From IMG/VR virus record IMGVR_UViG_3300043436_000172, positions 1 to 27,977 of that record: a stretch of 27,977 bases of DNA; one strand, 5' to 3'. Position 1 is the stretch's first letter. Each line of letters begins with the position of its first letter. The position numbers and the translations under genes were made by a program. Source of the DNA: a virus. Shown here piece after piece: positions 6,322 to 27,645 of the stretch. Below the pieces are notes generated by a model. That model was not told the origin of the DNA. It saw only the letters and a program-made list of their open reading frames with translations, and searched no databases.

Positions 6322-8205
6322 TTAGATCTGGAACCAGACGTCGCCCGCGTTCGATGCAGTGGGCGTAGTAGAAGTCACGAACACCTGACCCCCGCCAGTG
6401 TACCCGCTCGTCACGTTACGCAGATAGTTAGCCCCAGCCGGACCCGGAGGGCCAACCGGACCAGTAGGACCCGGAGGACCAGTCGGCCCCGTGGGACCAG
6501 TCAAGCCAGTCGGGCCAGTCGGACCAAGCGGACCAGTGGGACCCGGCACAGTGGAAGCAGGACCAGTCGGCCCCGTGGGACCAGTCAAGCCAGTCGGGCC
6601 AGTCGGACCAAGCGGACCAGTGGGACCCGGCACAGTGGAAGCAGGTCCAGTCGGACCAGTCGGACCCGTAGGACCTGTGGGGCCGGTCGAACCAGTCGGG
6701 ATGGTGAAGTTAAAGACCGCCGCAGTGGGCGAACCAGAGTTCGTGACTGAAGCCGACCCGCCCGCCGGACCAGTCGTAGTCGTACCAACCGAGATAGTTG
6801 CAGCACTACCAGTAGGACCAGTAGGCCCCGGACCCCCCGAAGGGCCAGTAGGGCCAGTCGGACCCGTAGGACCAAGCGGACCAGTAGGACCAGTAGGACC
6901 GGTCGAACCAGCCGTACCCTGCGGAATCGTAAAGTTGAAAGTTGCCGCAGACGAAGTGCCCGAGTTAGTTACTGCAGCGGGTGTACCGGCAGGCCCGGTC
7001 GTAGTCGTACCAACAGTAATTGTTGCTGCAGTACCCGTTGTACCCGTAGGACCGGTCGGACCAGTTGGACCCGTAGCGCCAGTAGCGCCAGTCGGCCCCG
7101 GAGGGCCAGCCACCGTCGAAGCAGGGCCGGTAGGACCCGGAGGACCAGTCGGACCCGTGGGGCCGGGGACAGTCGAAGCAGGACCGGTAGGACCAGTCGG
7201 ACCCGTAGCGCCAGTTGAGCCAGTCGGACCTGCGGGACCCGGAGGACCAGCCACCGTCGATGCAGGGCCAGTAGGCCCAGTCGGGCCAGTCAGACCAGTT
7301 GGACCCGTAGGGCCAGTCGGCCCGGTCGGGAGGGTGAAGTTGAAGACCGCCGCGCTCGTTGAGCCCGAGTTCGTGATCGCCGCAGGGCTGCCTGCAGGGC
7401 CCGTCGTGACCGTGCCAAGCGTAAGCGTAGCCGCCGAGCCAGTCGAACCCGTGGGGCCCGGAGGGCCAGTCACACCCGGAGGACCCGGCACCGTTGAAGC
7501 AGGACCAGTCGGACCCGTAGGACCCAAAGGCCCTGTAGGACCAGTCGGACCCGTAGAGCCAGTAGGACCGGTAGGGCCGGTCGGGATGGTGAAGTTGAAC
7601 GTCGCTGCCGAGGGAGTACCTACGTTCGTAACCGCCGCAGAGCCACCCGCCGGGCTTGTCGTGGTCGTGCCTACGGCAACCGTTGCCGCCGTGCCAGTCG
7701 GACCCGTAGCACCCGTGGGACCAACCGGACCCGTTGCGCCAGTCGGACCAGTCGGACCAGTCGGACCAGTCGGCCCCGTGGGGCCAGTCGGACCCACAAT
7801 GTTGGTCGCCGTGACAATATCCGTGCCGTTGCAGACAAGGATGGTCTTGACCCCGTTGGCAATCGAAACGCCAGTCTGGCCCGTGACCTTGACCGTGACA
7901 GCGAAGCCGCCCGTGGTGTTGTTAAAGACAAAATAGAGCTTCTTGTTATTCGGCACCTCAACTGTCCGCGCAGCGGTCAGCGTCCCGGTGAACTCTAAGT
8001 ACATGTTACGGGCCACGCCCGTAGCGCCGTTCGGGATGGTCAGGATCGTGGGGGAGGCCGAGTCTGTGACTGCCTGCGTGACGTACCCGGCAATGGACTG
8101 CTCAAGCAGGGTGCCAAGGTTGGTATTGGTCGTGACGCCCCATGTACCTGCCTGTTCGCCGGTACCGATGAGCTCAATCCCAAGGTTAGAACTAAAAGTT
8201 GTCAT
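6322..8205 (-). CDS. Collagen-like tail fibre protein
   Basis: A 627-residue protein with GAGG six bases before the ATG. Residues 1-137 form a non-collagen head ([20 protein letters not shown]...), a pattern seen at the virion-attachment end of phage fibres. From residue 138 there are Gly-X-Y triplets, mostly GPT, broken by four copies of a module of about 35 residues shaped like [36 protein letters not shown]. ASTV[PA]GP punctuations also recur. The C-terminus ([17 protein letters not shown]...NAGDVWFQI) is a short non-collagen tip. GPT triplets resemble the collagen region of BclA-type spore fibres, in which Thr can be glycosylated. Extreme repetition makes this gene prone to length change. 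Confidence 0.88.
6477..6644. repeat. Perfect 84-bp tandem duplication inside the collagen-like gene
   Basis: Bases 6477-6560 and 6561-6644 are identical over all 84 positions, and the next two bases upstream also match. The unit encodes 28 residues, beginning [20 protein letters not shown] in the cyclic protein order. The absence of any silent difference points to a very recent duplication, or to gene conversion within the array. Confidence 0.93.
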
Positions 8206-8214
8206 GTTCGGCCT

Positions 8215-9012
8215 CTACGAGTAACGCTTATCGTCGTTTGGATTGATCTCAACCCAGACCGATCCCTGCGAGTCATTGACAGGGGTCCAGCCCCCGGTTT
8301 GGGAATCGTTCACAGGTTGCCATATTGAGCCTTGGCTGTCATCTACCGGGTTCCACAGGTAGGAACTAAACGTGGTGTCGAATACGGAAGCGGAGTCGAT
8401 GAACAGGGACTGAAAGGTAACGCCCGCCAAGGCTGCATCGCTTATGACGGCGCTGTCAGAAAACTGCGAGTTAAATATGCCCTGCGCGGTGAGCAAGTCC
8501 GAAACCGTAACGCCTTCTATGACCGACGCCGACATGTTGATGGTCGGGACAACGGTATCCGCCCCCGTGGCTGACTCGGGGACAGTGATGAACACCGAGA
8601 ACGAAGGGCTAAGGATTTCTGAGGCTTCGGCTGCTTCCGCAACGGAAGATACAAATTCAGCCGCTGCCGACACTGTGTCGAGCGGAACGGCGGTCTCGTT
8701 GATCAGGGAAACGAAATTGACCGTAGCCGCAAACGGGCCGCCTCCCCTTGCCTCTTCCTCGACTTGAGCCACAAGTATGGGCTGAGTGAAGAACTGTGAG
8801 GAGGCGTTGCCGGTCAGGATGACGCTGCTGCTAAAGATACTGCCCGGTGCATCCACCGAGTCAGAGGCAGTGCTTGTCTCAGAGATGAGCGAGACGGCAA
8901 ACAGGACAGAAGCAACGGAGTCCGATCCCGTCACGGACTCAGACACAGCAGAGTTCAGGTATTGCTGAAACCCGCTAATCGTCCACGACGAGATCGGCCC
9001 GTTGCTAAACAT
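8215..9012 (-). CDS. Ser/Asp-rich repeat tail protein with C-terminal WxPVNDSQ repeats
   Basis: A 265-residue protein; the ATG at 9010-9012 overlaps the preceding stop (TGATG), and a GTG one codon upstream is the alternative. The body is made of loose repeats rich in Ser, Val, Ala and Asp (SVSESVTGSDSVAS, SLISETSTASDSVDA, SVAEAAEASEI), suggesting an extended beta-rich shaft. The last 50 residues carry three repeats: WNPVDDSQGSI, WQPVNDSQTGG and WTPVNDSQGSV. No enzymatic motif is seen. Its place between fibre genes supports a fibre or adhesin role, but the family is not recognised. Confidence 0.7.
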   Translation of the reverse strand: MFSNGPISSWTISGFQQYLNSAVSESVTGSDSVASVLFAVSLISETSTASDSVDAPGSIFSSSVILTGNASSQFFTQPILVAQVEEEARGGGPFAATVNFVSLINETAVPLDTVSAAAEFVSSVAEAAEASEILSPSFSVFITVPESATGADTVVPTINMSASVIEGVTVSDLLTAQGIFNSQFSDSAVISDAALAGVTFQSLFIDSASVFDTTFSSYLWNPVDDSQGSIWQPVNDSQTGGWTPVNDSQGSVWVEINPNDDKRYS

Positions 9013-9185
9013 CACTCAATAGATGGCGGGGCACTCGGCGGCTGCTGTTGCAACTGAGCCTGTGCCTGCTGCTGAAGTTTGCCGAAAAGGGCAGCGACCG
9101 TCTCAAACGGCAGCTTGGCCAACGCCAAGAACACGAGGTTGGCTTCGTCAATCGAGAGGTCTTCAAACTTGATCTTGTTTTCCAT
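9012..9185 (-). CDS. Small Gln-rich protein, 57 aa
   Basis: A 57-residue frame begins MENKIKFEDLSIDEANLVFL behind an AAGGTGA ribosome binding site and ends in a Gln/Pro-rich tail (KLQQQAQAQLQQQPPS). Its stop overlaps the next start by one base, so it is probably a real, coupled gene. The predicted content is helical (FEDLSIDEANLVFLALAKLPFETVAALF). It could be a small assembly factor for neighbouring fibres, but nothing in the sequence proves a function. Confidence 0.7.
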   Translation of the reverse strand: MENKIKFEDLSIDEANLVFLALAKLPFETVAALFGKLQQQAQAQLQQQPPSAPPSIE

Positions 9186-9230
9186 AACTCACCTTTGTGC
9201 GGGGGATTAGCCCGTTGTTGATAAAACTGA

Positions 9231-9560
9231 TTAGGCAGCCGGGGCTGCCCAAGGCAGCGGAGGCGCTACGATAGGCGGATTGATCTGATTGTCAATCTGC
9301 TGCTGCACGGCAGCTTCGGTAGTGTCCTTGTCCACGCCGTTGGCCCAGACCCAGCCAAGCACTTGGTCGAGCGTGAGGTCAGCGTATGGGGTGAAGGACT
9401 TGTCCTTCTGAAACGGCACGGAGCAGGTTGAGTAGACGCTTCCGTTGTAGTCTCCGTCCACGCCGTTGCAAGACCAATGAACGATGAAAACGACATCGGT
9501 ATCGCCGTCCTCCTGCGGGAGGCAGTCGAGTTGCGAGATGTTCCAAGTGATAGTGGTCAT
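9231..9560 (-). CDS. Small phage protein after the S74 fibre (DUF7936-like), possible fibre accessory
   Basis: A 109-residue protein with GGAG nine bases before the ATG, starting directly after the stop of the big fibre gene. It opens TITWNISQLDCLP, continues with alternating beta-like segments (TDVVFIVHWSCNGVDGDYNG), then FTPYADLTLDQVLGWVWANG and a Gln/Pro tail. The T[PE]...LT.[ED]QVLGW pattern resembles a small domain of unknown function common in aquatic phages (DUF7936, by memory). Position suggests a fibre assembly or capping partner; this is inference. Confidence 0.68.
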   Translation of the reverse strand: MTTITWNISQLDCLPQEDGDTDVVFIVHWSCNGVDGDYNGSVYSTCSVPFQKDKSFTPYADLTLDQVLGWVWANGVDKDTTEAAVQQQIDNQINPPIVAPPLPWAAPAA

Positions 9561-12212
9561 TTATTTAGTCTCCAGTTGTGCGACACGCGCACGCAGCGAT
9601 TGAATTTCTGCCAACAACAACGGAACCAAAGCCGACACATCCATCTGCTGATACTTCGGTGTGCCATCTTCGTTCACGGCATCCTTCTCGCCTGTCACGG
9701 CGTAGGGAGCGTGTTCCTGCGCCTCATGCGCTATCAGCATTGGGCGGCTCTGCGTTGCGCCCTTCATCTGGCCTTCGTAGACCTTCAGCGCGTCGATGAT
9801 TGCGCCGGAGTCTTGAACTGGCCCGATGATGTCCTTGGCGCGATAGTCGGAGGTTACATTGTAAGCAACCAGACCGCCTGCGCGGTTGTAGGTAATGCTT
9901 CCGCGTACTGATGCGCCAGCCTCTGTGTAAAACTGAATAAATAAATTGTCGCCCGTTGTGGCTGAATTCCAAACGCCAACGGTGTCTGTCGTTGATGTAT
10001 TGTTTCTAAAAATACCTGACCTTGCAGAAGCGGTTGCTGTATCAACCTGCAATCTATCGTCCGCTGCCCCAAAGTTAGAGGTTGCGCCAACCAGCAGCGC
10101 CCCCCCGCTCGTGATGCGGGCGCGTTCGGTGGAGTTGGTCTGGAAAATCAGCGTGCCTTCGGTTATCGGCGCGTTGAAAATAACGCCCGCGTCGTTAGTC
10201 CCAGCAATGACAGCGGTGCCGATGGTCAACCCGCGACCCGCGACCGCGCCAAACCGCGCCTGCACGGAGTTACCCGCGCCCGTCACATCCAATCGCTGTG
10301 CAGGCGAACTCGTCCCGATGCCGAGGTTGCCGGAGGAGTCGAGGCGCATGCGTTCGGTGAAGGTAAAGGTGTTGTTCGCCGTACCAGCGGCGGCGTTGCT
10401 CCAAAGATGGGTTCCAGAAATCTGCGAGTAGAGCGTCGGAGGGTCGCCTGTGGTGCGATAAGCAAAGGTGTTCGTTGCGCTTTCGTAGGCGGCAAAAGCA
10501 AGGTTTGCAGCACCGTTTCCCTGCTCAAACAGCGAGACATAGCCGTTAGCGCCTATTTGCAACGCCCTCGCACCGCTGCGCCACGCCGAAGGAGTCGTCC
10601 CGATGCCGAGGTTGCCGCTGCTGTCGAGGCGCATGCGTTCGGTGACGCCATCAGCAATAATAAGCGCGGAATTGTATGTCGCAATATTGAATTCGTTGTT
10701 TGCGTCCTTAACAGAAATTGCTGCGCCATTTGAGCCGCTATTGATTACCTGCGCAATACGCCCCCACGATTGTGGGTTATCAAGAGAAGTTCCGCCAAGA
10801 AGCCACTGACCCGACGCATCCAGCGTCATCGCCTGCGTGAACGAGATGGCGTTGCCTGCGGTGCCGGAGGGGGCGATTTGAAAGTTAATAGCGCCGTTGT
10901 CATGACGTATCATTGTTGCCGGGGCGGTTCCAACGTACCGAAATGCTCCAGTTCCAAAATAAGCGTTGGCACTGTACGAAGCATACCCACTACTAGAAGT
11001 AACAATGCCGCCTGCTACGGTCTGAATGTTGCCTCCCCCCGTCCACGCACTCGGCGTCACGCCCAGACCGAGGTTGCCGGAGGAGTCGAGGCGGGCGCGT
11101 TCGGTAGGGATATCGCCAGCAGGAGCCGTCAGAAATGCCAACGCGCCTGCGTCAGTCGTTCCTATGCTGATGCCGCGAATTGCGGCCTTGCCGTAGATGC
11201 CAGCAGGGAAGGAGATTTCCTGAAAACCGTTCACGGTTGCGCTGGCCGCGCTCAACGCGAGGTTGCCGCGAACATCCAGCCGCTGCCCCGGCGAACTCGT
11301 CCCGATGCCGAGGTTGCCGGAGGCGTTGAGGCGCATCCCTTCCGTTGCACCCGCATAGCCCCAAATGTGCTGAACGGCGTTGTACTGTGCCAACGCAAAC
11401 AAACTTGCGTCAGAGTTGTAGACATTGAGAACCGTGGCAGTCTGATTTGCGCCAGTAGTTGAAGCCCGAGCAGTAAACGCTGAACTAGCGTTGCTTACAG
11501 AATCAACACGACCAACAGGCGAACTCGTCCCGATGCCGAGGTTGCCTGATGTATCAAGCCGCATCCGCTCGGAGCCGCCCGTAAAGAACGTAATCGGTAG
11601 ATACGTCCCAGTGCCGTTTATAGAACTATTTATACGGTTGTCAGTAGAAGTACTAGCAAACTGAAACCAAGACGAATTGGTTGGATCAGCGCTGCTATGC
11701 GTTCTAAAAGCGGAACTAGATCCAGTCCCGCTCGGGTAGGCCGAAACAATCGTCGAACTGTTTGCAGTGCTAGTAACAAACCCAAAACGGTCAGTGACCG
11801 TGGCGTTGCTCATATCAGCGACAATGCGCTGAGCGGTTGAGCTAAAGGTGAGGTTGCCCGAGAGCGTCAGGTTAGGAAGCGTAGCGTTGGTCGCCGTGTC
11901 CAAATAGACCGCCCGGCCAGCCGGGTAGTCACAGAAGACGAACTTGGTACCTGCTGAGAAGTTGACGAGGCTGCCGCTGTTTGACGAGGCCAGCACCGTA
12001 TCTCGGGAGAGCGTAGTCCCCGAAGACGTATACGTACCAATGCCCACCTCCCACTCATTAGCGGTCTGGTGAACGATGGTGTAATACGTGGTGTTAGCGT
12101 TGCCAATTACAGCAAACGACTGATACCCAGACACCGCCCCCGCGAGGGTTACCGTGCCAGTACTAGTAGTAGTCGTGGTCTCATTGACACGATCAGCAAG
12201 TACAAGAGGCAT
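9561..12212 (-). CDS. Long tail fibre with C-terminal Peptidase_S74 intramolecular chaperone
   Basis: An 883-residue fibre with a strong site (GGAGGCTTAAA) before the ATG. The N-terminus (MPLVLADRVNETTTTTSTGT...EWEVGIGTYTSSGTTLSRDTVL) matches the virion-proximal domain of many phage fibres. The shaft carries seven imperfect repeats of the type ERMRLDSSGNLGIGTSSP. The C-terminus from about residue 785 is a Peptidase_S74 (endosialidase) chaperone. SDYRAK at 788-793 gives the expected Ser-Lys pair five residues apart, and MLIAHEAQEHAPYAVTGEKDA follows. A terminal coiled coil (AEIQSLRARVAQLE) completes it. The chaperone should trimerise the fibre and then cut itself off. Confidence 0.9.
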   Translation of the reverse strand: MPLVLADRVNETTTTTSTGTVTLAGAVSGYQSFAVIGNANTTYYTIVHQTANEWEVGIGTYTSSGTTLSRDTVLASSNSGSLVNFSAGTKFVFCDYPAGRAVYLDTATNATLPNLTLSGNLTFSSTAQRIVADMSNATVTDRFGFVTSTANSSTIVSAYPSGTGSSSAFRTHSSADPTNSSWFQFASTSTDNRINSSINGTGTYLPITFFTGGSERMRLDTSGNLGIGTSSPVGRVDSVSNASSAFTARASTTGANQTATVLNVYNSDASLFALAQYNAVQHIWGYAGATEGMRLNASGNLGIGTSSPGQRLDVRGNLALSAASATVNGFQEISFPAGIYGKAAIRGISIGTTDAGALAFLTAPAGDIPTERARLDSSGNLGLGVTPSAWTGGGNIQTVAGGIVTSSSGYASYSANAYFGTGAFRYVGTAPATMIRHDNGAINFQIAPSGTAGNAISFTQAMTLDASGQWLLGGTSLDNPQSWGRIAQVINSGSNGAAISVKDANNEFNIATYNSALIIADGVTERMRLDSSGNLGIGTTPSAWRSGARALQIGANGYVSLFEQGNGAANLAFAAYESATNTFAYRTTGDPPTLYSQISGTHLWSNAAAGTANNTFTFTERMRLDSSGNLGIGTSSPAQRLDVTGAGNSVQARFGAVAGRGLTIGTAVIAGTNDAGVIFNAPITEGTLIFQTNSTERARITSGGALLVGATSNFGAADDRLQVDTATASARSGIFRNNTSTTDTVGVWNSATTGDNLFIQFYTEAGASVRGSITYNRAGGLVAYNVTSDYRAKDIIGPVQDSGAIIDALKVYEGQMKGATQSRPMLIAHEAQEHAPYAVTGEKDAVNEDGTPKYQQMDVSALVPLLLAEIQSLRARVAQLETK

Positions 12213-14052: not shown

Positions 14053-14301
14053 TTACCGCTCTTTGCCCTGACGCGTCAGCACGCCAGCCAAGCCACCCTT
14101 GTCGAGCTTGACCCGCTCAATGAACTTGCGGCCCTTGGTGGCAGCGCCGTAGCCCTGCATGTCCATGTGGGTCACGCCACGGTTCACGTCCGTCTCCGGA
14201 TAGCCGTTCTCGCCCGTAGGAGCGTTGTTCGGCTCAGGCTGCTTGTACTTGCCGATGGGATTCATGTCCCAATCGAAGAACTTGAAATCAGGCTTGCCCA
14301 T
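14053..14301 (-). CDS. Small hypothetical protein, 82 aa
   Basis: An 82-residue polar protein with GAGG eight bases before the ATG. It begins MGKPDFKFFDWDMNPIGKY, has a Pro/Asn-rich centre (PEPNNAPTGENGYPETDV), then a Gly/Lys-rich part (GYGAATKGRKFIERVKLDKG). No family is recognised. It belongs to the series of short, Gly/Lys-rich proteins in this operon and lies between another such gene and an adaptor gene. A minor virion or assembly role is a guess. Confidence 0.65.
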   Translation of the reverse strand: MGKPDFKFFDWDMNPIGKYKQPEPNNAPTGENGYPETDVNRGVTHMDMQGYGAATKGRKFIERVKLDKGGLAGVLTRQGKER

Positions 14302-14501: not shown

Positions 14502-14879
14502 CTAGGTCGTTACGACCGTTACATCGCCTACGTATCCCTTGGATACGAGATAATTCGGGGTCAGCCCTGCATCGTCTGCTTGGGCTCCGCCAACCGGGTT
14601 CCAGCCCCACTGGATCATTCTACTACCACCCGCACCATCATTGCCGGGTGCAAAATAAGTCGTGTCCGGGCGGGGGTTCCGTATCGCCTGCGGGTCGTCA
14701 ACTGGCCACATACCGAGTTGCAACTGCGGCTGATCAGGTTCCCAACACGACCCACAAACAAGGATATTAACGTTCTTGGTCTTAATGACAAGCGGCCTAA
14801 GCTCCTTCAGCTTAAAGCGCCACCCGCAGCGGTCACACTGCGAGATAGCATTTTTGCCACTTGCAAACCGATTAGGCAT
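14502..14879 (-). CDS. Zinc-ribbon virion-associated protein, 125 aa
   Basis: The start MPNRFASGKNAIS at 14877-14879 overlaps the stop of the preceding adaptor-like gene by four bases, so the longer frame from 14960 is rejected. CDRCGWRFKLKELR and LVCGSCWEPDQPQLQLGMWP supply two CxxC pairs spaced for a zinc ribbon (about residues 15-45). DDPQAIRNPRPD and a Gly/Trp-rich tail follow. This whole arrangement recurs next to adaptor genes in aquatic phages (from memory), which favours a structural rather than regulatory role. Whether it is packaged is unknown. Confidence 0.75.
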   Translation of the reverse strand: MPNRFASGKNAISQCDRCGWRFKLKELRPLVIKTKNVNILVCGSCWEPDQPQLQLGMWPVDDPQAIRNPRPDTTYFAPGNDGAGGSRMIQWGWNPVGGAQADDAGLTPNYLVSKGYVGDVTVVTT

Positions 14880-15604
14880 CAGTAGCCCCCAAGGAAGCTC
14901 TGTCTCGGCACGAACCGCACCGCAGCCTTCTCCCGATCCTCGCCCGCAGCCAGATCCCAAGCCTCGTCGTACTGAGCCTTGAGCGTCATCGTCCGAACAT
15001 CAGCGCCGGGAATCTTCATTGAGAGCATGTAGGCCAAGCCCGCGACCATGCAGGGCAGGAAGCGGAACGGGATATCCTGCCCGTTAGAGCCATTACCCAC
15101 GTCGAACATGCGGCGCAGCCGGGTGTAGTAAATGGTGTACGGGGTGCTGTTGTCGGGCTTCGGCCACACCGTGAACTGCGGATAGACCACGATATTATTG
15201 GCATCGGTTGCACCCGTACGACGATTGATCCAGATCTGGATCGGACGCCCCGTCGCGTTTTTGTTCGGGATGGCAACGTAGGTGCTGGACGAAATCCGGC
15301 TGATGTTGATGTCGATCTGGTTCGTGCCCGTGCCCGTCCGGATCACATGGTCAAGCAGGTCCACCGTGTCGGCAGGGAGGTCATAGGTCCCGACGTTGTA
15401 GGTCAAGGCATGCGTGCCCTGCTCAAGCGTCCACAGATTGATGCCCCGATTGGACCAGTCCATGAGCAACAGGGACAGACTACGCTTGGCCGTACGCAGA
15501 TCGTAACCGCTACGCAGTTCCGCGCCGCAACGCTCGAAAGCCTCTTCCACGATGGTGTTGAGGTCGAGGTTAAAGTCGGTTGTGGCTGTAGTCTTGTCGG
15601 CCAT
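14879..15604 (-). CDS. Head-tail adaptor/tail accessory protein (P22 gp4-like)
   Basis: A 241-residue protein. Helical N-terminus: LDLNTIVEEAFERCGAEL, then RTAKRSLSLLLMDWSNRGIN. A beta middle follows (GTHALTYNVGTYDLPADTVD, IQIWINRRTGATDANNIVVY, QFTVWPKPDNSTPYTIYYT), then a helical end (RFLPCMVAGLAYMLSMKIPG, LKAQYDEAWDLAAGEDREK). FERCG...S G.....R and L..LL.DW.NRG.NLW are typical of P22 gp4-like adaptors that plug below the portal. It is the first adaptor-like gene in the order of transcription and overlaps the zinc-ribbon gene. Confidence 0.78.
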   Translation of the reverse strand: MADKTTATTDFNLDLNTIVEEAFERCGAELRSGYDLRTAKRSLSLLLMDWSNRGINLWTLEQGTHALTYNVGTYDLPADTVDLLDHVIRTGTGTNQIDINISRISSSTYVAIPNKNATGRPIQIWINRRTGATDANNIVVYPQFTVWPKPDNSTPYTIYYTRLRRMFDVGNGSNGQDIPFRFLPCMVAGLAYMLSMKIPGADVRTMTLKAQYDEAWDLAAGEDREKAAVRFVPRQSFLGGY

Positions 15605-15610
15605 TACTTC

Positions 15611-15859
15611 TTATCCTTTACCCGCTTGGCGGAAGCTGCGCGTTTTAGCAGCAATGCCCTTGGGTTGCCGGACGAACTGCTTGCCTTGCGCTTTTCCTTT
15701 ACGCTTGGCGGCGGTGGTTCGGGCATACTCGGAGGAGCTGAGAGCATTGATCGCAGATTCCGGAAGATATCTTTCACCCGTGTCAGAAGATCGTTTACCA
15801 CTTTTGGTTCTCCATTTCTGCTGAGTCCACGCCTTAAGCGACTGCTGTGGGGCTTTCAT
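15611..15859 (-). CDS. Small basic conserved phage protein, 82 aa
   Basis: An 82-residue protein whose ATG overlaps the stop of the HNH gene (ATGA). It reads MKAPQQSLKAWTQQKWRTKS, then GERYLPESAINALSSSEYAR and KGKAQGKQFVRQPKGIAAKT, ending in a basic tail. The W...KWRTKSGK ... TGERYLP..A...LS..EYA.TT pattern is conserved among aquatic phages, and a DUF5872-type match comes to mind but is uncertain. A different frame over the same bases (15604-15801) also stays open. This frame is preferred because of its conserved look and the ATGA coupling. Confidence 0.72.
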   Translation of the reverse strand: MKAPQQSLKAWTQQKWRTKSGKRSSDTGERYLPESAINALSSSEYARTTAAKRKGKAQGKQFVRQPKGIAAKTRSFRQAGKG

Positions 15860-16323
15860 GCTTTTTCTCTAACTTCTAACGGTTTGTTAGCCGTAATATA
15901 TTCGGCTGCTTTTTGCAACAAATTTGCGTTGTCTTTTAGCAGTCCCAATCCTCGGTTGCAATTAGGACAAAGCAGTCCACGAATTTTCCCGGTCTCATGA
16001 TCATGATCAATACATAACCACGAAAACTTTTCTTCTGGTTCGTTGCACAAAGCGCAACAACCTTTTTGCGCTTCATACATAGCGTTATACATGTCTTGAG
16101 TAGCGCCCCGCCGACGTAACCGCCGATTAGTTACTACCCAATTATTGCGCCGCCAATCATTTAAATGGTCACGATTTTGTTCTGCCCACGCTTGCCGCTT
16201 AGCTTGCATGCACAATTTGCACTGCGATTTGTACAAATGCACCAACTTCCCTCCGCGACTAAAAAATTCAGTCAGCGGCTTTTCTTGCTGGCACCCCGTA
16301 CAAATTTTAGTCTCTGTATCCAC
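15856..16323 (-). CDS. HNH endonuclease, recombination endonuclease VII type
   Basis: A 155-residue protein from the GTG at 16321-16323; this start lies in the last 17 bases of the upstream gene, and the longer frame to 16434 would overlap that gene heavily. Cys8, Cys11, Cys35 and Cys38 form an N-terminal zinc finger. The endonuclease VII core follows: CCALC (Cys90, Cys93), DHDH at 106-109, TGKIRGLLCPNCNRGLG (Cys119, Cys122), then AAEYI. Such free-standing genes often behave as homing endonucleases, while in T4 the family resolves branched DNA. The gene is visibly more AT-rich than its neighbours, a sign of separate origin. Confidence 0.85.
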   Translation of the reverse strand: MDTETKICTGCQQEKPLTEFFSRGGKLVHLYKSQCKLCMQAKRQAWAEQNRDHLNDWRRNNWVVTNRRLRRRGATQDMYNAMYEAQKGCCALCNEPEEKFSWLCIDHDHETGKIRGLLCPNCNRGLGLLKDNANLLQKAAEYITANKPLEVREKA

Positions 16324-16606
16324 CGCCCCGCCGTTTATATTCCTTAGCCAACAGTTGGCTTTTTCTCGCGCTCCACTGACCTGCCTTGGTACCCTGCACA
16401 GCCCGAGACTTGATCGACTTGAACAGGCTCTCACGCATGCCGGGCTTGGTGTAGTTCCCGGCCTCGTTGACCTTGCTCTTCACCTTGCCCCCCTTGGCAT
16501 GGCGAATCGGCTCGTCAGTCCCGATCACGGGCTTGTCGTCCCCACGTCGCTTGGCACGAGGGATCTTGCTAGGAGCCATAGCACCCATACCACGCGACGG
16601 CATCAT
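16307..16606 (-). CDS. Small basic conserved phage protein, 99 aa
   Basis: A 99-residue protein; two adjacent ATGs overlap the stop of the upstream gene (TGATGATG). The sequence has a basic N-terminus (SKIPRAKRRGDDKP), AKGGKVKSKVNEAGNYTKPG, RESLFKSIKSRAVQGTKAGQ and WSARKSQLLAKEYKRRGGGY. The block NEAGNYTKPGMR.SLF..IK ... GQWSARK.QLLAK.YK..GGGY is a recurring small-protein signature in aquatic phages (from memory). The last codons are shared with the start of the HNH gene in another frame. Function unknown. Confidence 0.75.
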   Translation of the reverse strand: MMPSRGMGAMAPSKIPRAKRRGDDKPVIGTDEPIRHAKGGKVKSKVNEAGNYTKPGMRESLFKSIKSRAVQGTKAGQWSARKSQLLAKEYKRRGGGYRD

Positions 16607-16974
16607 CAGACGAACTTCCCGCGAGTCTTGCCCTTGGTAGCGCAGCCATCAGCCCGCTTGGACGCGGACGAGACGGAGCCGCCCTTGGCGTACTTCTTCA
16701 CAGCACCGCCATGCTTAAACATCGGCTGACGCCTTGCACGTTCAGCAGCTTCTCTCATCTGCCGATCTTTCGCTGCCTGAGCCTGATCCTTCGCGGCCTG
16801 CTCCAGCTTCGCATCGGACGAAGAAGCCTCACGCGCCGCAGCCCTGCGACGGCGCTCAGCAGCAGCCGCCTCTTGCTCACGACGCATCCTTTCCTGCTCC
16901 TTCAAGAACTCCCGGCGATCTGCGCTATCCGGCGGAGGCGTTGCCTCGTTGGAAGTTCTTTTCGCACTCGCCAT
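16606..16974 (-). CDS. Basic coiled-coil protein with C-terminal ADG..KGKTRGK motif
   Basis: A 122-residue protein from the ATG at 16972-16974, which overlaps the upstream stop by one base (TAATG). A GTG two codons upstream is an alternative. Residues 20-85 form a strongly charged, Arg/Ala/Glu-rich helix (RREFLKEQERMRREQEAAAA, KDRQMREAAERARRQ), probably a coiled coil. The C-terminus turns Gly/Lys-rich (FKHGGAVKKYAKGG) and ends in ADGCATKGKTRGKFV at 108-122. The final motif is shared with the adjacent upstream 65-residue protein. Function unknown. Confidence 0.7.
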   Translation of the reverse strand: MASAKRTSNEATPPPDSADRREFLKEQERMRREQEAAAAERRRRAAAREASSSDAKLEQAAKDQAQAAKDRQMREAAERARRQPMFKHGGAVKKYAKGGSVSSASKRADGCATKGKTRGKFV

Positions 16975-17171
16975 TAGCACTTACCGCCGTAAGCCATCTT
17001 GACCATCTTGCCCTTGGTCTTGCCCTTAGCAGTGATGCCATCGGCACCCTTGCGGTAGACCGAGCCGCCTTCCTTGTAGCCCTTCATCATTGCACGGCCC
17101 ATCGTGTCCGGCGTACGACGCTTCATGGCGCGACCGGCCTTGTCAGCCATACCTTTCATTTTCATCTTCAT
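16974..17171 (-). CDS. Tiny basic protein with ADG..KGKTKGK motif, 65 aa
   Basis: A 65-residue protein starting MKMKMKGMADKAGRAMKRR; its ATG overlaps the upstream stop by four bases (ATGA). It is extremely rich in Lys, Met and Gly. The C-terminal part reads KEGGSVYRKGADGITAKGKT followed by KGKMVKMAYGGKC. Residues 43-57 match the last 15 residues of the next protein (ADG, then KGKT[KR]GK[MF]V). It could bind DNA or a virion surface through charge, but no function is established. Confidence 0.72.
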   Translation of the reverse strand: MKMKMKGMADKAGRAMKRRTPDTMGRAMMKGYKEGGSVYRKGADGITAKGKTKGKMVKMAYGGKC

Positions 17172-17317
17172 TTCGACTTACTCCTAAATTTACGGCCTTT
17201 GTCGGCCTTGTTGAATTCCTTCGCCACCTTGGTCGGGACTCCGACTTTCTTGGCAAAGGCTGGGTTATGGGCGGCAGCAGCCATCAGATTACGCTGCGCT
17301 TTTGACTTACTAGGCAC
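17168..17317 (-). CDS. Tiny basic protein, 49 aa (GTG start)
   Basis: A 49-residue frame reads (M)PSKSKAQRNLMAAAAHNPAF then AKKVGVPTKVAKEFNKADKG and RKFRSKSK. GGAG lies seven bases before the GTG at 17315-17317, and the start overlaps the upstream stop by eight bases. The end overlaps the next ATG by four. The SK.QRNLM.AAAHNP.FA.KVG.P..VA.EF ... DKG pattern is known from small phage proteins of unknown role. It is too short for most gene callers but fills the gap exactly. Confidence 0.78.
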   Translation of the reverse strand: MPSKSKAQRNLMAAAAHNPAFAKKVGVPTKVAKEFNKADKGRKFRSKSK

Positions 17318-17550: not shown

Positions 17551-17805
17551 TCAGCAATTCCACGCCCTGAGCGACTTGTTGATCCGGCTGTTCGGATCAT
17601 TCGCTGTCTTGGCACTCGTGAGCTTGCGCTTCATGCCTTTCATCCGGGCACAGAACGAATCACGACGGGCACCGCCTTCAGGCTGCGGACGCTTAAGACC
17701 CGGCTTGCCGGGGTTGGCCTTGTTGTAGGAAGCCCGGCCTTTGGCATTCAAGCCGCCAGCCGGGTTCTTCCCTTCCTTGCGTTGCCACGCAGGAGACTTA
17801 GCCAT
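17551..17805 (-). CDS. Small conserved basic phage protein (DUF6321-like)
   Basis: An 84-residue basic protein reading SPAWQRKEGKNPAGGLNAKG, PGKPGLKRPQPEGGARRDSF, CARMKGMKRKLTSAKTANDP and SRINKSLRAWNC. The EGKNP.GGLN.KGR.SYN, RR.SFCARMKGMK.KLTS.KTANDP.SRINKSLR.W.C signature is strongly conserved in aquatic phages and is, from memory, the DUF6321 family. Its start overlaps the upstream stop by eight bases (ATGGCTAA). No function is known. Abundant Lys/Arg suggests binding to nucleic acid or an acidic protein surface. Confidence 0.82.
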   Translation of the reverse strand: MAKSPAWQRKEGKNPAGGLNAKGRASYNKANPGKPGLKRPQPEGGARRDSFCARMKGMKRKLTSAKTANDPNSRINKSLRAWNC

Positions 17806-18615: not shown

Positions 18616-19347
18616 TCAATCAGATGGGGTGTCAACAGCCTTAAACACCCAACCTTTGCAGGGGCCACGGGTGATGGGACGGCCTGATTTTAGGGCCCGA
18701 TTTACGGTGGTGGGCTTAAGCTTAAGCTGCTCACGAAGTGCCTTGATGCTCGGATAAACCTGCGAGGTTCCGTCCGACTTGATGACTACGATCCGGCGGC
18801 ACACCTTGGCGAGGAAGGCGGCGTCACGGGACTTGCCGTAGTTGGGGTTCCGTTCCCCCGACATCGCCACAGAGATCTTGGCTCGGGTTTCGGCAGATTT
18901 AGGCTTCCCGATCAAGTAAGCCCGGATCTTTTCGCGGGATTCTTGGCTGTGATGACGGCCACGGCTGTGTTTGCCGATTTTAAGTTTGGCTTCAGGGGTA
19001 TGGCTGAAGGTCTTCCCCCACATGTAGTTCTTTTCGCCAAACAGTCCTAGATTAGGAGCGGTAGCGTCAGTGCCTAAGTTATAGCAATAATCTTTACCAA
19101 CGTGTTCTTTAAGCCACACATTTTCGGCAACAAGCAGGTCCGCCCCTTCTGGATGTTCTTCGACAATTACAAACGTGAAGGCTTTTTCCCCGTACTTATT
19201 CCACGCAGCTTGAAGATGTTTATTAGCGTGATCGCCCCGCCGCAAACGCCACCAATGCAGGCGTTTCCGTCTTTTAAAGTCCACGGCGCTACCGACGTAG
19301 AACTTGTTGTTAAGGACGTTGATGATTTTGTAGATTCCGCCTTTCAT
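18616..19347 (-). CDS. GIY-YIG homing endonuclease (free-standing)
   Basis: A 243-residue nuclease. GIY at 4-6 and YVG at 17-19 form the GIY-YIG core, followed by KRRKRLHWWRLRRGDHANKHLQ-like sequence (residues 25-46) and the metal-binding Glu75 (VAENVWLKEH). NUMOD3-type DNA-binding repeats occupy about 104-170 (GEKNYMWGKTFSHTPEAKLK; GERNPNYGKS). A NUMOD1-like helix-turn-helix occupies about 186-236 (YPSIKALREQLKLKPTTVNR, GPCKGWVF). It stands between the capsid gene and the next structural gene, right after a terminator, and is visibly more AT-rich. It probably spreads by cutting phage DNA that lacks it. Confidence 0.92.
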   Translation of the reverse strand: MKGGIYKIINVLNNKFYVGSAVDFKRRKRLHWWRLRRGDHANKHLQAAWNKYGEKAFTFVIVEEHPEGADLLVAENVWLKEHVGKDYCYNLGTDATAPNLGLFGEKNYMWGKTFSHTPEAKLKIGKHSRGRHHSQESREKIRAYLIGKPKSAETRAKISVAMSGERNPNYGKSRDAAFLAKVCRRIVVIKSDGTSQVYPSIKALREQLKLKPTTVNRALKSGRPITRGPCKGWVFKAVDTPSD

Positions 19348-19438: not shown

Positions 19439-20347
19439 TCAGGACGAACCCGGCGAGCCGAAAATGCCCAGGGGGTCCGACCAGCCGAAGCTGTAGCGCT
19501 CACGGCTCTTGTAACGGACGTTGCCCGTATCGAAATCCCCGTCCATCGAGTTCGCCAGCGGCGTACGGACAAAGTGCTTCAGACCGTTCGGGACGTCGGT
19601 TCGGAGGAACCAGCCGTTCGGATCAGTCAGGAAGTGGTTGACCGTGTAGCCTTCCGGAATCGAACCCATCGCCTTGAGGGCGTTGATGTCGTTGTCAGCG
19701 GTCGCAACACGGAGCTCCGTGTCGAGGAGGCGCTTGGCGACGAACATCAGAGCCGGGGGCACGATGAGCTTGCGCGGCTTCGCAGCGATGAGCAGACCAC
19801 GTTCGTCGGTCCACCCAGCGATCTGAATCACCGCAGCCTCAAGCGAAGTCTCGTTGAGGTCCGAAGCGGTCAGACGGTTGCTGTTGGTGCCGCCCGAGAC
19901 GAGCGGGTGGGCAGCGTTACAGAGCGACACGCCGTCGCCACCGGTCACAGCCGTGGCAAAAGCGTTGTTCAGCACCGCAGCAGCCTTAACCTGCTTCGTG
20001 TACGCCATAGCGCGAGCAAGGCCCTTGGTGTAGCGCTTGCTGAGCGAGTCGTACAGATTGTCCTCAATCGCCTCTTCCGTGATGGAGAAGCCGAGAGCAA
20101 TCGTCTCGTGGTTGTAACGAGCCGTCCAAGCTTCCTGCGCGTTATCGTACGCAATGGCCTGACCCTCGGGCTTGACCGGGGCAGCGGAGAACCCGCTCAG
20201 CTTCGTCTCTTCTTCAAAGGAACGCTCGGAGGTCTCAGTCTCGTAGATCTCCTTGTGCTCCTCACCGTACTGCTTGTACTCCAGACCGAACAGGGCGTTC
20301 AGGCCGGGCAGCAGCTCCTTAAGAAGTTGTGCGCGTGAAATAGCCAT
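19439..20347 (-). CDS. Major capsid protein
   Basis: A 302-residue protein with GGGAG nine bases before the ATG. It reads MAISRAQLLKELLPGLNALF, GLEYKQYGEEHKEIYETETS, ETIALGFSITEEAIEDNLYD, ARAMAYTKQVKAAAVLNNAF, then LIVPPALMFVAKRLLDTELR and NGLKHFVRTPLANSMDGDFD. The order of N-arm, E-loop-like region, helical spine and PP.L..A..LL motif suits an HK97-fold coat protein, similar to Mu gpT-type head subunits. It follows the decoration-like gene and precedes a strong terminator, as expected for the most abundant late product. Coat function is well supported by gene order. Confidence 0.88.
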   Translation of the reverse strand: MAISRAQLLKELLPGLNALFGLEYKQYGEEHKEIYETETSERSFEEETKLSGFSAAPVKPEGQAIAYDNAQEAWTARYNHETIALGFSITEEAIEDNLYDSLSKRYTKGLARAMAYTKQVKAAAVLNNAFATAVTGGDGVSLCNAAHPLVSGGTNSNRLTASDLNETSLEAAVIQIAGWTDERGLLIAAKPRKLIVPPALMFVAKRLLDTELRVATADNDINALKAMGSIPEGYTVNHFLTDPNGWFLRTDVPNGLKHFVRTPLANSMDGDFDTGNVRYKSRERYSFGWSDPLGIFGSPGSS

Positions 20348-22441: not shown

Positions 22442-22819
22442 TTATGCGCGACGGATGCCACGGGGGTCTTGGACCACCGCTTCCACCGTGTCGTCGTTGA
22501 TGATGCGGAACTCACGTCCGTGGATGACCACGCGGGTACCGGAATAGGGTCGTGTCAGCACGAAGTCCCCCTCCTTGCACCACGGGCCGGTCGGGAACCG
22601 ATCCTTGTCGGCATAGCAAAGGTCGCCCATCTTGACCACGAACAGGACGACGGTCGTCTGCTCCTCGGTCTTCTTGGTGTCCTCAGCCTTGATCAGGCCC
22701 CCTTCATACTCCTCCTCCACCTGCGGCACTGCGCAGAGGATTCGGTACCCTTTCGGCTCAGGGAGAAGCTTCGCCCTTTCTGCCTGCTCTTTAGTCGCTT
22801 CAATATCAATGTTACTCAT
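22442..22819 (-). CDS. Phage GroES-like co-chaperonin
   Basis: A 125-residue protein from the ATG at 22817-22819, seven bases after GGAG and overlapping the upstream stop by eight. It matches the GroES plan: PKGYRILCAVPQVEEEYEGG as the first strands, a mobile loop at about 34-50 with GGLI, the second sheet with KMGDLCYADKDRFPTGPWCK and EGDFVLTRPYSGTRVVIHGR, and the closing EFRIINDDTVEAVV. An insertion (LCYADKDRFPTGPW) and an extended N-terminus differ from bacterial GroES. It probably pairs with host GroEL to fold the coat protein, as T4 gp31 does. Confidence 0.85.
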   Translation of the reverse strand: MSNIDIEATKEQAERAKLLPEPKGYRILCAVPQVEEEYEGGLIKAEDTKKTEEQTTVVLFVVKMGDLCYADKDRFPTGPWCKEGDFVLTRPYSGTRVVIHGREFRIINDDTVEAVVQDPRGIRRA

Positions 22820-23006
22820 CATCGCGCTCCAAGCGTTTTGCAAGGTCTTTGATGTGGTTCTTTGCGAGTTCAAGACCCTGTAAAGCCCCGCAAAGTCGTT
22901 TGTATTCACCCTCGTCCAGTTTGCCCTGCACGACGGCTTCAACGATCAAGATGCGCTCTTCTTGGAGTTTTGCGTCCAAGTATTCCAGAGCGTTGGAATA
23001 ACTCAT
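22812..23006 (-). CDS. Tiny helical protein after portal, 64 aa
   Basis: A 64-residue protein; its ATG overlaps the portal stop by four bases (ATGA). It is almost wholly helical and charged: MSYSNALEYLDAKLQEERIL, IVEAVVQGKLDEGEYKRLCG and LQGLELAKNHIKDLAKRLER. This type of short helical protein between portal and downstream head genes occurs widely in aquatic phages (from memory). It may be a small assembly factor. No further function is visible. Confidence 0.75.
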   Translation of the reverse strand: MSYSNALEYLDAKLQEERILIVEAVVQGKLDEGEYKRLCGALQGLELAKNHIKDLAKRLERDDE

Positions 23007-25561
23007 GCTTCACTGCTCCCGCCTTCTGGCTGTTGAGTTTGCTCGGCTTGTCTACGACGCATGTCCACGTCGTCTCGTGCTTTGCCGATATCAAGCCCGA
23101 GTCGTACACCTTCAATCTGCTGCTTGGCCGCAAGGGCCGCCTTGTCCTTCTGGATGTCCACGCCGAGACGCGCCGCCTCAAGCTGCTGTCGTCCAGAGGC
23201 TTCGGCCTTACGGAGCTCAAGTTCATCGAGCTTGGCGGCAGCGTCCACCATGTCTTTCTGGGTCTTGCGCTGCTGTTCTGCCATACGGATCTGACCGTCG
23301 ATCTGAGCCTGCTGCGCCTTGGTCTGCGCGATGAGCTGCTTGATCTGCAGGTCCATCATCTGCATCTGTACAAGCGGATCCTGCTGTTGCTGCTGGGCCT
23401 GCTGCATTTGCGCCTCGGCCTGATCCTTCTGCAAGACACGCGCTGCGGCCACCGCAGCAAGCTGCGAGAGCTGGGCCTCGAACTCAGGCGGCAGGTCGTA
23501 CTCGTCGTTGTCACCCTGCGGCAGCGGGGGAAGCGCCGCGCCAAGCTGCTTCTCGATCTCACGGCGGTACTGGAACGCCATGTGCTCCATGATGTGGGCT
23601 TGGATGGCACCCTGCATCTGCTGAGCCTGCGGGCTCTGTCCGATCATCGCCGCGATCTTCGGGTCCTGCATGAGAGCCATGTGGACCTGCATGTGGGCCT
23701 CGTGATCCTGATAGATGAACGCCTTGGCGGGCTTACCCGTCATCAGGTCCATGTTCTCCGTGATGGGGTCACGCGGCTTGGCATCGTCCGGCAGCGGGAT
23801 GATCTTGTCGGCGTTCTTGACCCCAAGGGTCTCGATCATCTGCCTGTGAAGATGCGGCAAGTCATAGATCTGCGGGGCGGTCTGCGAGAGCTGCAGCACG
23901 GCTTGGTACTGCACGATCTTCTGCGACATCGTGGCCGCGTTCGGGTCCGAGACCGGGATGACATCGACGTCATCGTAGTCAGCCTTCTTGGCCTTGCGGC
24001 TGCCCACCTCGGGCTCGTACGAATACTCGTCCGGGGTGTTGTCACGGATGATGCCCGCGAGGAGCTTGAACTCCTGCTTCATCGTGTAATAGATGCGGGC
24101 CTGCACCGCGCTCATCACTTTGAGAACACGCTCAAGGATGGCAAGCGTCGTACCGACCGGGGCCTGCGAAGACATGTCGCTGACCTTGAGGTCCGACACC
24201 GCAGCGAAGCGGCGTCCTTCCTCGACAATCCGGTCCATCAGGAGGGAGAGCGTCTGGCTCGGCTCCTTGTACGGCAGGGGCAAGATGTTGTCGCGGATCG
24301 CACCCGAAGGCACGTCTACGTCGCGGAACTCTCCGGGAGCAATGGGGGTGTCGTCGCCCTTGATACGCAGGCCACGTGACTTGAGACCACCCGGAAGATT
24401 GCTGAGAGTTCCCGCATCGACAAGCTGGCGGAGTAGGGAGGTGGCTGCCTTAGAGTGGCCGCCGATAAGATGAATAAGTCCAAAATAGTAGAAGCCAAAG
24501 CCGGGGATGTACCCGTAATGCACAAAGTGCTGCCGCTTCTCCTTGAGTTTGTCATCTTCTCGCCAGTTGCGCCGAATCGCCAAGATCGTCCCGGTACCCT
24601 TCTCAATCGTCACCACGTACGGCAACGCGAGCCCGGTCTCATTGTTGTCCTTATCGACGTCGGGGTAGCCCGGCAGGTCAAGGTTGACGTGCATCTCAAG
24701 GAGCTGAAACCGGTCGTCCATCGACGCCGAAAAGCCTTGATCCTCGGCCTTCTGCTTCTCAACCTCGTCCATCGTGCGGATCGGGTCACCAAGGTCGATG
24801 TCCCGGTAGAACCCCGCATACTGGAGCTTGCGCAGCTCGTTCTTGGTCTTACGCATGCGGTGCGTAACACGGTCGGTCGTCTCAAGGTTCGGAGCGCCGT
24901 AGGGGACGATGATGTCCTCAGCCGGGATAAAGACCGCAGTCTGACGGTTGAGAGCTGGGTCGAAGTACATCTTCTTGAAGGCGTTGCCCGCCAAGGCAAG
25001 CGAGAGGAGCAGGCGCTCATGCTCCGGGCGGTACTCCTTCATGACCTCGGTCAGCTGATAGTTCATGTCGTCCGCCACGCGGATGGCGGCGTCCTTCTTC
25101 TCCGGAGTCTCGCGGCCCACGATCTTGGTCTTGACCGGCCCCGCAGCGGGGAAGGTCTCCATGATGGTCTCGGACTGGAACTTGACCGCCGACTCCATCA
25201 AGAGGGGGTGGAACACGCCACATGCACCCGGCCACGGCTCGGTACGCTCCTCGTACTTGATGCCAAGGATCTTCAGGCCCTTAATATATGTGTCGAGCCA
25301 GTCCTTGCGGCTGGAGAGATCCTGCTCGTAGTGCCCGATGAGCTCGCCCGCAAGACTCTGCAGGTCGTTCTCGCCCATGAAGTCGGCAAGGTTCGCGTCG
25401 AACTCTTCTGCCCTAGGCTCTTCTTTCATGAGCTCGATGACGGCCCCGTCGATGCCGATGGTCACTGCCTCGGGGTCCTCGATGCTGATCTCAAGCGCGG
25501 GCTCGGCAGCAAGAGCCTCAAGCCCCATCGGCGCTTCGTACAAACCTTTATCAATGGCCAT
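23003..25561 (-). CDS. Portal protein (P22-like, long form)
   Basis: An 852-residue protein with AGGAG before the ATG. The core includes YEQDLSSRKDWLDTYIKGLK, ERTEPWPGACGVFHPLLMES, KFQSETIMETFPAAGPVKTK and AGNAFKKMYFDPALNRQTAV, typical for large P22-type podovirus portals that form the DNA channel. From about residue 640 on there is a very long Gln/Ala-rich helix (QMQQAQQQQQDPLVQMQMMD, KAQQAQIDGQIRMAEQQRKT, GRQQLEAARLGVDIQKDKAA), comparable to the P22 portal barrel. Length well above most portals is explained by this tail. It overlaps the next gene by four bases. Confidence 0.86.
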   Translation of the reverse strand: MAIDKGLYEAPMGLEALAAEPALEISIEDPEAVTIGIDGAVIELMKEEPRAEEFDANLADFMGENDLQSLAGELIGHYEQDLSSRKDWLDTYIKGLKILGIKYEERTEPWPGACGVFHPLLMESAVKFQSETIMETFPAAGPVKTKIVGRETPEKKDAAIRVADDMNYQLTEVMKEYRPEHERLLLSLALAGNAFKKMYFDPALNRQTAVFIPAEDIIVPYGAPNLETTDRVTHRMRKTKNELRKLQYAGFYRDIDLGDPIRTMDEVEKQKAEDQGFSASMDDRFQLLEMHVNLDLPGYPDVDKDNNETGLALPYVVTIEKGTGTILAIRRNWREDDKLKEKRQHFVHYGYIPGFGFYYFGLIHLIGGHSKAATSLLRQLVDAGTLSNLPGGLKSRGLRIKGDDTPIAPGEFRDVDVPSGAIRDNILPLPYKEPSQTLSLLMDRIVEEGRRFAAVSDLKVSDMSSQAPVGTTLAILERVLKVMSAVQARIYYTMKQEFKLLAGIIRDNTPDEYSYEPEVGSRKAKKADYDDVDVIPVSDPNAATMSQKIVQYQAVLQLSQTAPQIYDLPHLHRQMIETLGVKNADKIIPLPDDAKPRDPITENMDLMTGKPAKAFIYQDHEAHMQVHMALMQDPKIAAMIGQSPQAQQMQGAIQAHIMEHMAFQYRREIEKQLGAALPPLPQGDNDEYDLPPEFEAQLSQLAAVAAARVLQKDQAEAQMQQAQQQQQDPLVQMQMMDLQIKQLIAQTKAQQAQIDGQIRMAEQQRKTQKDMVDAAAKLDELELRKAEASGRQQLEAARLGVDIQKDKAALAAKQQIEGVRLGLDIGKARDDVDMRRRQAEQTQQPEGGSSEA

Positions 25562-27083: not shown

Positions 27084-27645
27084 TTTGCTCGCCCACAACC
27101 TTGTATTCGATGCCCTCAAGCACCGACATCAGCTCTTTCTCGACCTCTTCGATGGGCTTGATCACGTGCGTGACCTCGCTTCGCCGCTTAAAAGCATCCA
27201 CGCCGTCCACTTCGCCGAGCTTGGTCAGAGCCTGAAGGCGGGTTTTGCCATCCTTCGCAGTCTCGATCTCCTTGACCAACCCTGTGATGACGTAGTTTTT
27301 GAGCTCAGCTAGGTCATCTACCAACGCATGGTTCATCTGCTTGACCATGCCCGCCAAGAACGCAATGGTCTCGTTGGGGTAAATGGCAAAATCTGGTCGC
27401 GCCTTAGGGTCCTCGATCATCTGCCGAGCAAGTTGAGTCGCATCCTGCTCATTAGTTTTGTCCGGAATGATCGGCTGGCCCGACAAATCACTGATCAGCT
27501 TTATGGTGCGAACGCGCATGTCAAGCTCTTGGCTCGGACTCAAGCTCGGCAGCGCTTCAGCCGCGTTGGCCGGAAGCACAAAATCTTCATCAATGTCAGG
27601 GACTAGGGGCTGCATTGTTGCGAAATATATACGAATTTGGGGCAT
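27064..27645 (-). CDS. Terminase small subunit (probable)
   Basis: A 193-residue protein ahead of the large terminase. The ATG at 27643-27645 follows a palindrome; a second ATG at 27613-27615 is possible, and neither has a clear ribosome site. After a Pro-rich start, DMRVRTIKLISDLSGQPIIP and TNEQDATQLARQMIEDPKAR precede a helical centre (NETIAFLAGMVKQMNHALVD, LKNYVITGLVKEIETAKDGK, TRLQALTKLGEVDGVDAFKR) suited to an oligomeric ring. The basic tail region (VTHVIKPIEEVEKEL) is typical. Function is inferred from position and helical make-up, since small subunits are poorly conserved. Confidence 0.75.
   Translation of the reverse strand: MPQIRIYFATMQPLVPDIDEDFVLPANAAEALPSLSPSQELDMRVRTIKLISDLSGQPIIPDKTNEQDATQLARQMIEDPKARPDFAIYPNETIAFLAGMVKQMNHALVDDLAELKNYVITGLVKEIETAKDGKTRLQALTKLGEVDGVDAFKRRSEVTHVIKPIEEVEKELMSVLEGIEYKVVGEQSATTDP

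Follow-up and report, generated by a model that had tools for sequence, protein, structure and literature searches.

A conserved C-terminal peptide on diverse small proteins encoded among the head genes of a podovirus lineage

Two adjacent genes and the peptide that they share

Positions 1 to 27,977 of the IMG/VR virus record IMGVR_UViG_3300043436_000172 (the window, 27,977 nucleotides in all) contain two adjacent small genes, P1 and P2, whose products share a 16-residue peptide, referred to here as the tag. All window features described below lie on the minus strand. P1 (16974 to 17171) encodes a conserved small basic protein of 65 amino acids (aa), and P2 (16606 to 16980) encodes a protein of 124 aa if read from a GTG codon or of 122 aa if read from the ATG two codons downstream. 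Common to both is ADG[IC]..KGKT[KR]GK[MF]V behind a Gly/Lys stretch. The P2 copy, RADGCATKGKTRGKFV (16609 to 16656), runs up to the stop codon and follows a Gly/Lys linker of the KHGGAVKKYAKGGSVSSASK type (16657 to 16719); the P1 copy, GADGITAKGKTKGKMV (17001 to 17048), is preceded by KEGGSVYRK and followed by KMAYGGKC. The initial annotation had likened the motif to phage protein tails, which is correct for P2, where it is the exact C terminus, but not for P1, where 8 residues follow; exact C-terminal placement dominates in relatives. AlphaFold2 modeled P2 as a single long helix (residues 20 to 84) followed by a low-confidence tail, the body being a charged helix and the tail the tag. P1 shares 7 bp with P2 and 4 bp with its upstream gene; because of these overlaps, we read the three genes as probably forming one late operon.

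The local alignment of P1 with P2 scored 83, and the best of 3,000 composition shuffles scored 65 (0/3,000 reached 83), so the similarity is not compositional. With P1 as the query, P2 was retrieved within the window at an E value of 5.5e-6. The core DNA pattern of the motif occurred once in the window, compared with 0.00 occurrences expected, using a pattern that excluded the CGC arginine codon found in the P2 copy. The part of P1 upstream of the motif aligned only weakly with P2. The sharing of the motif reported in the initial annotation is thus real, and its description of the remainder of the two proteins as unrelated is a fair one. Neither P1 nor P2 matched a Pfam or PHROG family, and neither collection has a family for the tag; a literature search, which left subscription papers mostly outside its reach, found no description of it. 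The GKT within the tag was considered as a P-loop and rejected, as the GxxxxGK context is absent.

Scans of IMG/VR bore out the earlier remark on similar tails from uncultured aquatic phages. At least 377 P1 relatives were confirmed (among the first 599 matches listed) and at least 486 matches to a tag profile (600 listed); matches to the core DNA pattern are likewise a lower bound, and the tag counts given below rest on the matches listed. The consensus is RADG[CI]Ax[KR]GKT[KR]G[KR]ΦV-COOH, 16 residues preceded by a Gly/Lys linker. Parts of the motif were prescribed by the search patterns, so that the conservation of its sequence is partly selected; the patterns left its position free. No residue followed the tag in 396 open reading frames (ORFs) and a single residue followed it in 60, and a second class, of the P1 type, continued for 8 to 9 further residues. 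Asp-14, Gly-13, Gly-8, Thr-6, and Gly-4 were invariant in 328 deduplicated tags, and the last residue was mostly Val, Cys, or Ile. Pairs of tags from the same locus were 78% identical in aa sequence while 57% of their four-fold degenerate sites differed, and half of the shared residues used different codons. Within clusters, the ratio of nonsynonymous to synonymous polymorphism (pN/pS) was 0.19 for the tag. Selection therefore acts on the tag peptide and not on the DNA.

The proteins that carry the tag are diverse. Clustering of the 326 tagged proteins whose bodies were 30 aa or longer gave 189 clusters, 142 of them singletons, and the pN/pS of 0.26 measured for the bodies within clusters indicates that they are genuine genes. 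The median isoelectric point (pI) of the bodies was 9.4, that of neighboring small proteins was mostly 10.5 to 11.5, and 29 of the 189 body clusters were acidic. Large hydrophobic residues made up a fraction of 0.15 of the bodies, compared with about 0.2 to 0.36 of the larger head and tail proteins of the window. When 133 long tagged proteins were compared with Pfam and PHROG, the only matches were to DUF6321, DUF6496, one marginal LPXTG anchor, and mostly unnamed PHROGs, with one or a few members each. The bodies thus appear to be mostly disordered, basic, and interchangeable. The idea that one short tag is placed on different proteins has held up well: it is found on about 190 body families, under selection at the protein level, and only in a head-gene interval.

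Several recurring features were seen in the small proteins of these loci. A second shared module, an EF-hand/dockerin-like motif (PDLTGDGKVTRADVLKGRGV, DKNKDGKISGEDF), was seen repeatedly in the small proteins, both tagged ones and their neighbors (L009, L012, L043, and others; L359 and L366; gp53 of Pelagibacter phage HTVC023P, L282:19361-19726). FxxAFxxARxxGxxxFxWxGKxYxT marks another module of tagged bodies (L222, L241, L108, and L026). A phage of the window clade encodes an extremely His-rich slot protein of 114 aa (L483:7565-7909), which adjoins tag variants ending in RGHTRYRGDKH and KGHTKCACGGGKM.

A hypervariable slot in the head module of one lineage

The tag is restricted to one podovirus lineage (the Pag-Yong1/HTVC023P/DSL-LC04 type) and, within it, to a slot of hypervariable content located between the genes for the major capsid protein (MCP) and the head-tail adaptor. 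In the window, the head module consists of genes for the terminase large subunit (TerL; 25572 to 27119, phrog_38), the portal protein (23003 to 25561, phrog_1216), a GroES-like co-chaperonin that lies between the portal and scaffold-region genes and is kept across the lineage (22442 to 22942, phrog_3188), and the MCP (19439 to 20347, phrog_371). A GIY-YIG-type homing endonuclease gene (18616 to 19347, phrog_314) is inserted directly downstream of the capsid gene. It is followed by a DUF6321 gene (17551 to 17805), which in some relatives has the tag at its end, and by a small basic module (17168 to 17317, phrog_16759) that also forms the N terminus of the PHROG virion structural proteins phrog_22033 and phrog_25121. 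P1 is the upstream border of the slot, in which P2 lies, and a gene for a phrog_17747-like small basic protein (16307 to 16606) is the downstream border. An Endonuclease VII/HNH-like gene (15856 to 16434), located between this border gene and g15611, is absent from many relatives and is therefore probably a mobile intruder. The head-tail adaptor homologue (14879 to 15604; annotated as an adaptor in Pag-Yong1 and DSL-LC04) closes the main tagged interval on the downstream side. Beyond it lie g14053 (14053 to 14301) and, in the tail region, a gene for a 627-aa collagen-like protein with long GPTGPTG repeats (6322 to 8205). DUF6321 occurs alone, fused to the tag, or at the C-terminal end of phage proteins of very large size (phrog_3477, 928 positions), and we regard it as a reusable module.

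Tagged proteins consistently occurred with these genes. Every one of the 71 tag loci that were 9 kb or longer showed the terminase-portal-capsid-adaptor module, in the order TerL, portal, GroES-like (by PHROG), three genes, MCP, small basic genes, and adaptor, or a part of it that fitted the contig. In 18 viral records of 44 to 65 kb and in Planktothrix phage Pag-Yong1, all tags lay inside one stretch of at most 4.4 kb, and mapping of the records with landmarks placed no tag outside the capsid-to-g13399 interval. At loci with a P1 94 to 100% identical to that of the window and neighboring genes mostly 80 to 100% identical, the slot, bounded by P1 and the phrog_17747 gene, held one to three tagged genes per locus, of many different kinds. 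The MCP of the window is 73% identical to that of Pag-Yong1, 67% identical to that of HTVC023P, and 64.5% identical to that of DSL-LC04; this homology and the synteny from TerL through portal, GroES, scaffold region, and MCP to adaptor place the window phage in the lineage. A named, sequenced phage also carries the tag, because a 308-aa slot protein of Pag-Yong1 (UMO75986.1), found by reading slot proteins and confirmed by profile, ends in GRDGCAKRGRTKGRFI. Searches of INPHARED with P1 or the tags by tblastn returned nothing useful, the queries being too short and of low complexity. Sequence searches of the PDB with the capsid and adaptor gave no match. The INPHARED records OL906435, OQ594354, and PP438419 (Planktothrix, Synechococcus, and Planktothricoides) all have a length of 65,014 and equal capsid match scores and are possibly one phage under three names.

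Far from being equally frequent in unrelated basic proteins of any origin, the tag was found at 5 loci in 84,980 prokaryote species genomes, compared with at least 486 in IMG/VR. All five are on metagenome-assembled contigs, one of them (L205) itself carries a phage head module, and we rejected the tags as host genes on this count. In a Patulibacter metagenome-assembled genome from GTDB (L206:6746-8425), an acyltransferase-like ORF reads into a complete tag near the end of the contig; this may be an assembly chimera or a use of the tag outside phages, and we treated it as a possible chimera.

We also read capsid-to-adaptor intervals in loci sampled independently of the tag, for the resemblance of their capsids to those of the window, DSL-LC04, and CRP-902. 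In the window clade, 23 of 29 intervals contained the exact tag and 25 of 29 contained the core. DSL-LC04-type phages encode a P1-like protein (MADKMGRAVRRKTKDAMGRAM...) that lacks the tag, and DUF6321 occurs with and without it; the simplest reading is that the tag was appended not only to variable bodies but also to proteins already present.

Related peptides occur on other head-module genes. HTVC023P gp32 ends in RGVGAAIRGHKFIGVK and gp51 ends in RGGGAAVRGMGFKGVF. This second form, RGxGAAI[KR]GxxFxGVF at the C terminus, was found by pattern scan in 76 ORFs at 67 loci, with an arginine 15 to 16 residues from the end in 75 of the 76; it sits on 67 different protein starts, next to genes for portal, GroES, or adaptor proteins, and the 67 loci are without exception from the same lineage. 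A third form, RGTGAATKGxMARGPMA, stood at the C terminus of every closed ORF that carried it (79/79), and each of its 80 loci is in the lineage. Its core, QGYGAATKG, occurs internally in g14053 (14131 to 14157); in four relatives, proteins encoded downstream of the adaptor have the terminal version, and their position and motif suggest homology to g14053. In a quick capsid tree, the tag types were strongly clustered but not in single clades, and four window-clade loci carried the third type. The first and second forms, both collected by patterns, scored 4.73 when aligned at the C terminus and at most 2.7 at any other offset (column-shuffle P = 0.004; hhalign probability, 57%), so that their common descent is plausible, although not proven.

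Possible roles of the tag

The sequence of the tag and its distance from the C terminus are both fixed, and it is carried behind a flexible linker on unrelated bodies among the head genes of one lineage. For these reasons we tentatively favor, with slightly less than even confidence, the hypothesis that it is a C-terminal recruitment signal that loads small, basic, mostly disordered, exchangeable proteins into the head; of the functions suggested in the initial annotation, docking in the virion would fit best. The scheme, in which the binding of a head component, the packaging, the ejection, and the function of the cargo are all inferred, is as follows. The free C-terminal peptide would be held out on the Gly/Lys linker and would be recognized, while the head assembles, by one of its components, be it capsid, scaffold, portal, or adaptor. 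The rapidly exchanged small proteins would thereby be gathered into the prohead, where they may help to neutralize the charge of the DNA and/or from which they may leave with the genome at ejection to act early in the host. The suggestion that the tag is a signal for proteolysis found no support here. No stand-alone prohead protease was found among those window head genes that were scanned with PHROG (part of the set), protease-named PHROG matches on the window capsid span the capsid region of fused proteins, and the tag stands at the finished C terminus.

Several observations weigh against recruitment to the head. In the tag-independent sample, no tag was found between capsid and adaptor in the CRP-902 clade (0/73), which has a homologous capsid, and the exact tag was found in only 1 of 48 intervals in the DSL-LC04 clade, indicating that the tag is dispensable for building this type of head. 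The 8 residues after the motif in P1, and the extension of a few other tagged proteins past the tag, do not fit a strictly terminal signal. Among the 133 long tagged proteins, no body matched a known effector or enzyme family in Pfam or PHROG. The AlphaFold model of the capsid had a pLDDT of 39, unusable for inspection of a docking site or for a fold search. Finally, the tag itself is rich in Lys and Arg (4 to 5 in 16 residues) and has flexible Gly.

This last property is expected if the tag is instead a nucleic acid-binding tail and the slot encodes a histone-like basic set that condenses the genome, so that packaging would occur via the DNA and not via a head protein. We consider this alternative unlikely, though it deserves the most attention among those examined. 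Most slot proteins are very basic, as the pI values given above indicate, and the internal proteins of phage T4 touch DNA via lysines (PMC3012670). However, the fixed or nearly fixed Asp, Gly, Thr, and hydrophobic last residue and the fixed distance from the C terminus go beyond what charge alone needs, the acidic body clusters do not fit such a set, and no known DNA-binding family was matched.

Less probable still is that the tag addresses a target in the host or in early infection (RNA polymerase, membrane, or protease), with the position among head genes reflecting late expression and not a virion signal. Sequences at the C terminus commonly serve as signals for sorting or degradation, and the bodies vary as host-facing proteins do. 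The limitation of the tag to one lineage and one head interval argues against this idea, as does the location of sister tags beside portal, capsid, and adaptor genes; moreover, the hosts appear diverse (Planktothrix and Pelagibacter), which makes a shared host target less likely than a shared phage target. It is very improbable that the shared stretch is a DNA-level guide for recombination, with the peptide as a by-product, or the result of recent duplication: the slot is a site of swapping, and a common 3′ end would aid homologous exchange of bodies, but the codon and four-fold-site differences described above show that the peptide is conserved and the DNA is not. A low-complexity coincidence between two Lys/Gly-rich proteins, which P1 and P2 as compositionally biased proteins might invite, can practically be dismissed given the shuffling result, the hundreds of loci at a fixed place, and the near absence of the tag from prokaryote genomes.

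Returning to recruitment into the head, we also considered a broader proposal, to which we give appreciably less credence: that the aquatic phages of a major lineage, HTVC023P-type pelagiphages among them, share a C-terminal "address code" (core RGxGxAx[KR]G, in three variants) that loads and delivers an interchangeable arsenal of disordered basic proteins. If true, these phages would possess a hitherto undescribed, modular system for virion cargo. HTVC023P-type phages include the abundant marine virus vSAG 37-F6 (PMC9599517), in which gene 9 encodes the capsid and a hypervariable island encodes an unknown protein at 9,000-9,700 (PMC5490008); the code could explain this island. Hundreds of "hypothetical proteins" of abundant uncultured phages can be placed in one class recognizable by its last 16 residues, and annotation pipelines can use this conserved C terminus to flag fast-evolving slot genes that would otherwise escape similarity searches. 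Should the peptide prove to be a loading signal, it would also offer a short C-terminal handle for placing chosen proteins in phage heads.

Comparison with known systems

The DUF6321, phrog_17747, and phrog_16759 modules resemble the tagged proteins in gene cluster, size, and charge, and DUF6321 is sometimes fused to the tag. They differ in being longer conserved domains with families of their own, some of them fused to large phage proteins, whereas the tag has no family. The DarA and Hdf proteins of phage P1 are head-associated internal defense proteins that are co-ejected and contact DNA and capsid (PMC12810830). Unlike the tagged proteins, they are conserved, and they are not described as having a short C-terminal tag in common.

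Phage T4 places a constant capsid targeting sequence on diverse injected internal proteins (IPI to IPIII and relatives) and thus presents a similar picture of one short constant terminal peptide on diverse small proteins from a variable locus (PMC3012670). The tag differs from it in being C-terminal and unrelated in sequence, packaging here would be by inference, and no protease family was recognized in the genes scanned. In T4, the capsid targeting sequence is N-terminal and is processed by the prohead protease.

Family 1 encapsulins recruit cargo to an HK97-fold shell by short C-terminal targeting peptides (PMC8346489). The likeness to the tag lies in a short conserved C-terminal peptide on unrelated proteins encoded beside an HK97-type shell gene, a likeness that is here one of position only. 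Encapsulin cargoes are folded enzymes, usually of one kind per shell, and no Pfam enzyme such as a peroxidase or ferritin was found among the 133 tagged proteins. The tag system, in contrast, has a different sequence and comprises, for a DNA-filled virion, hundreds of bodies that are basic and mostly disordered and of which a genome encodes several. We do not assign it to the T4 type or to the encapsulin type.
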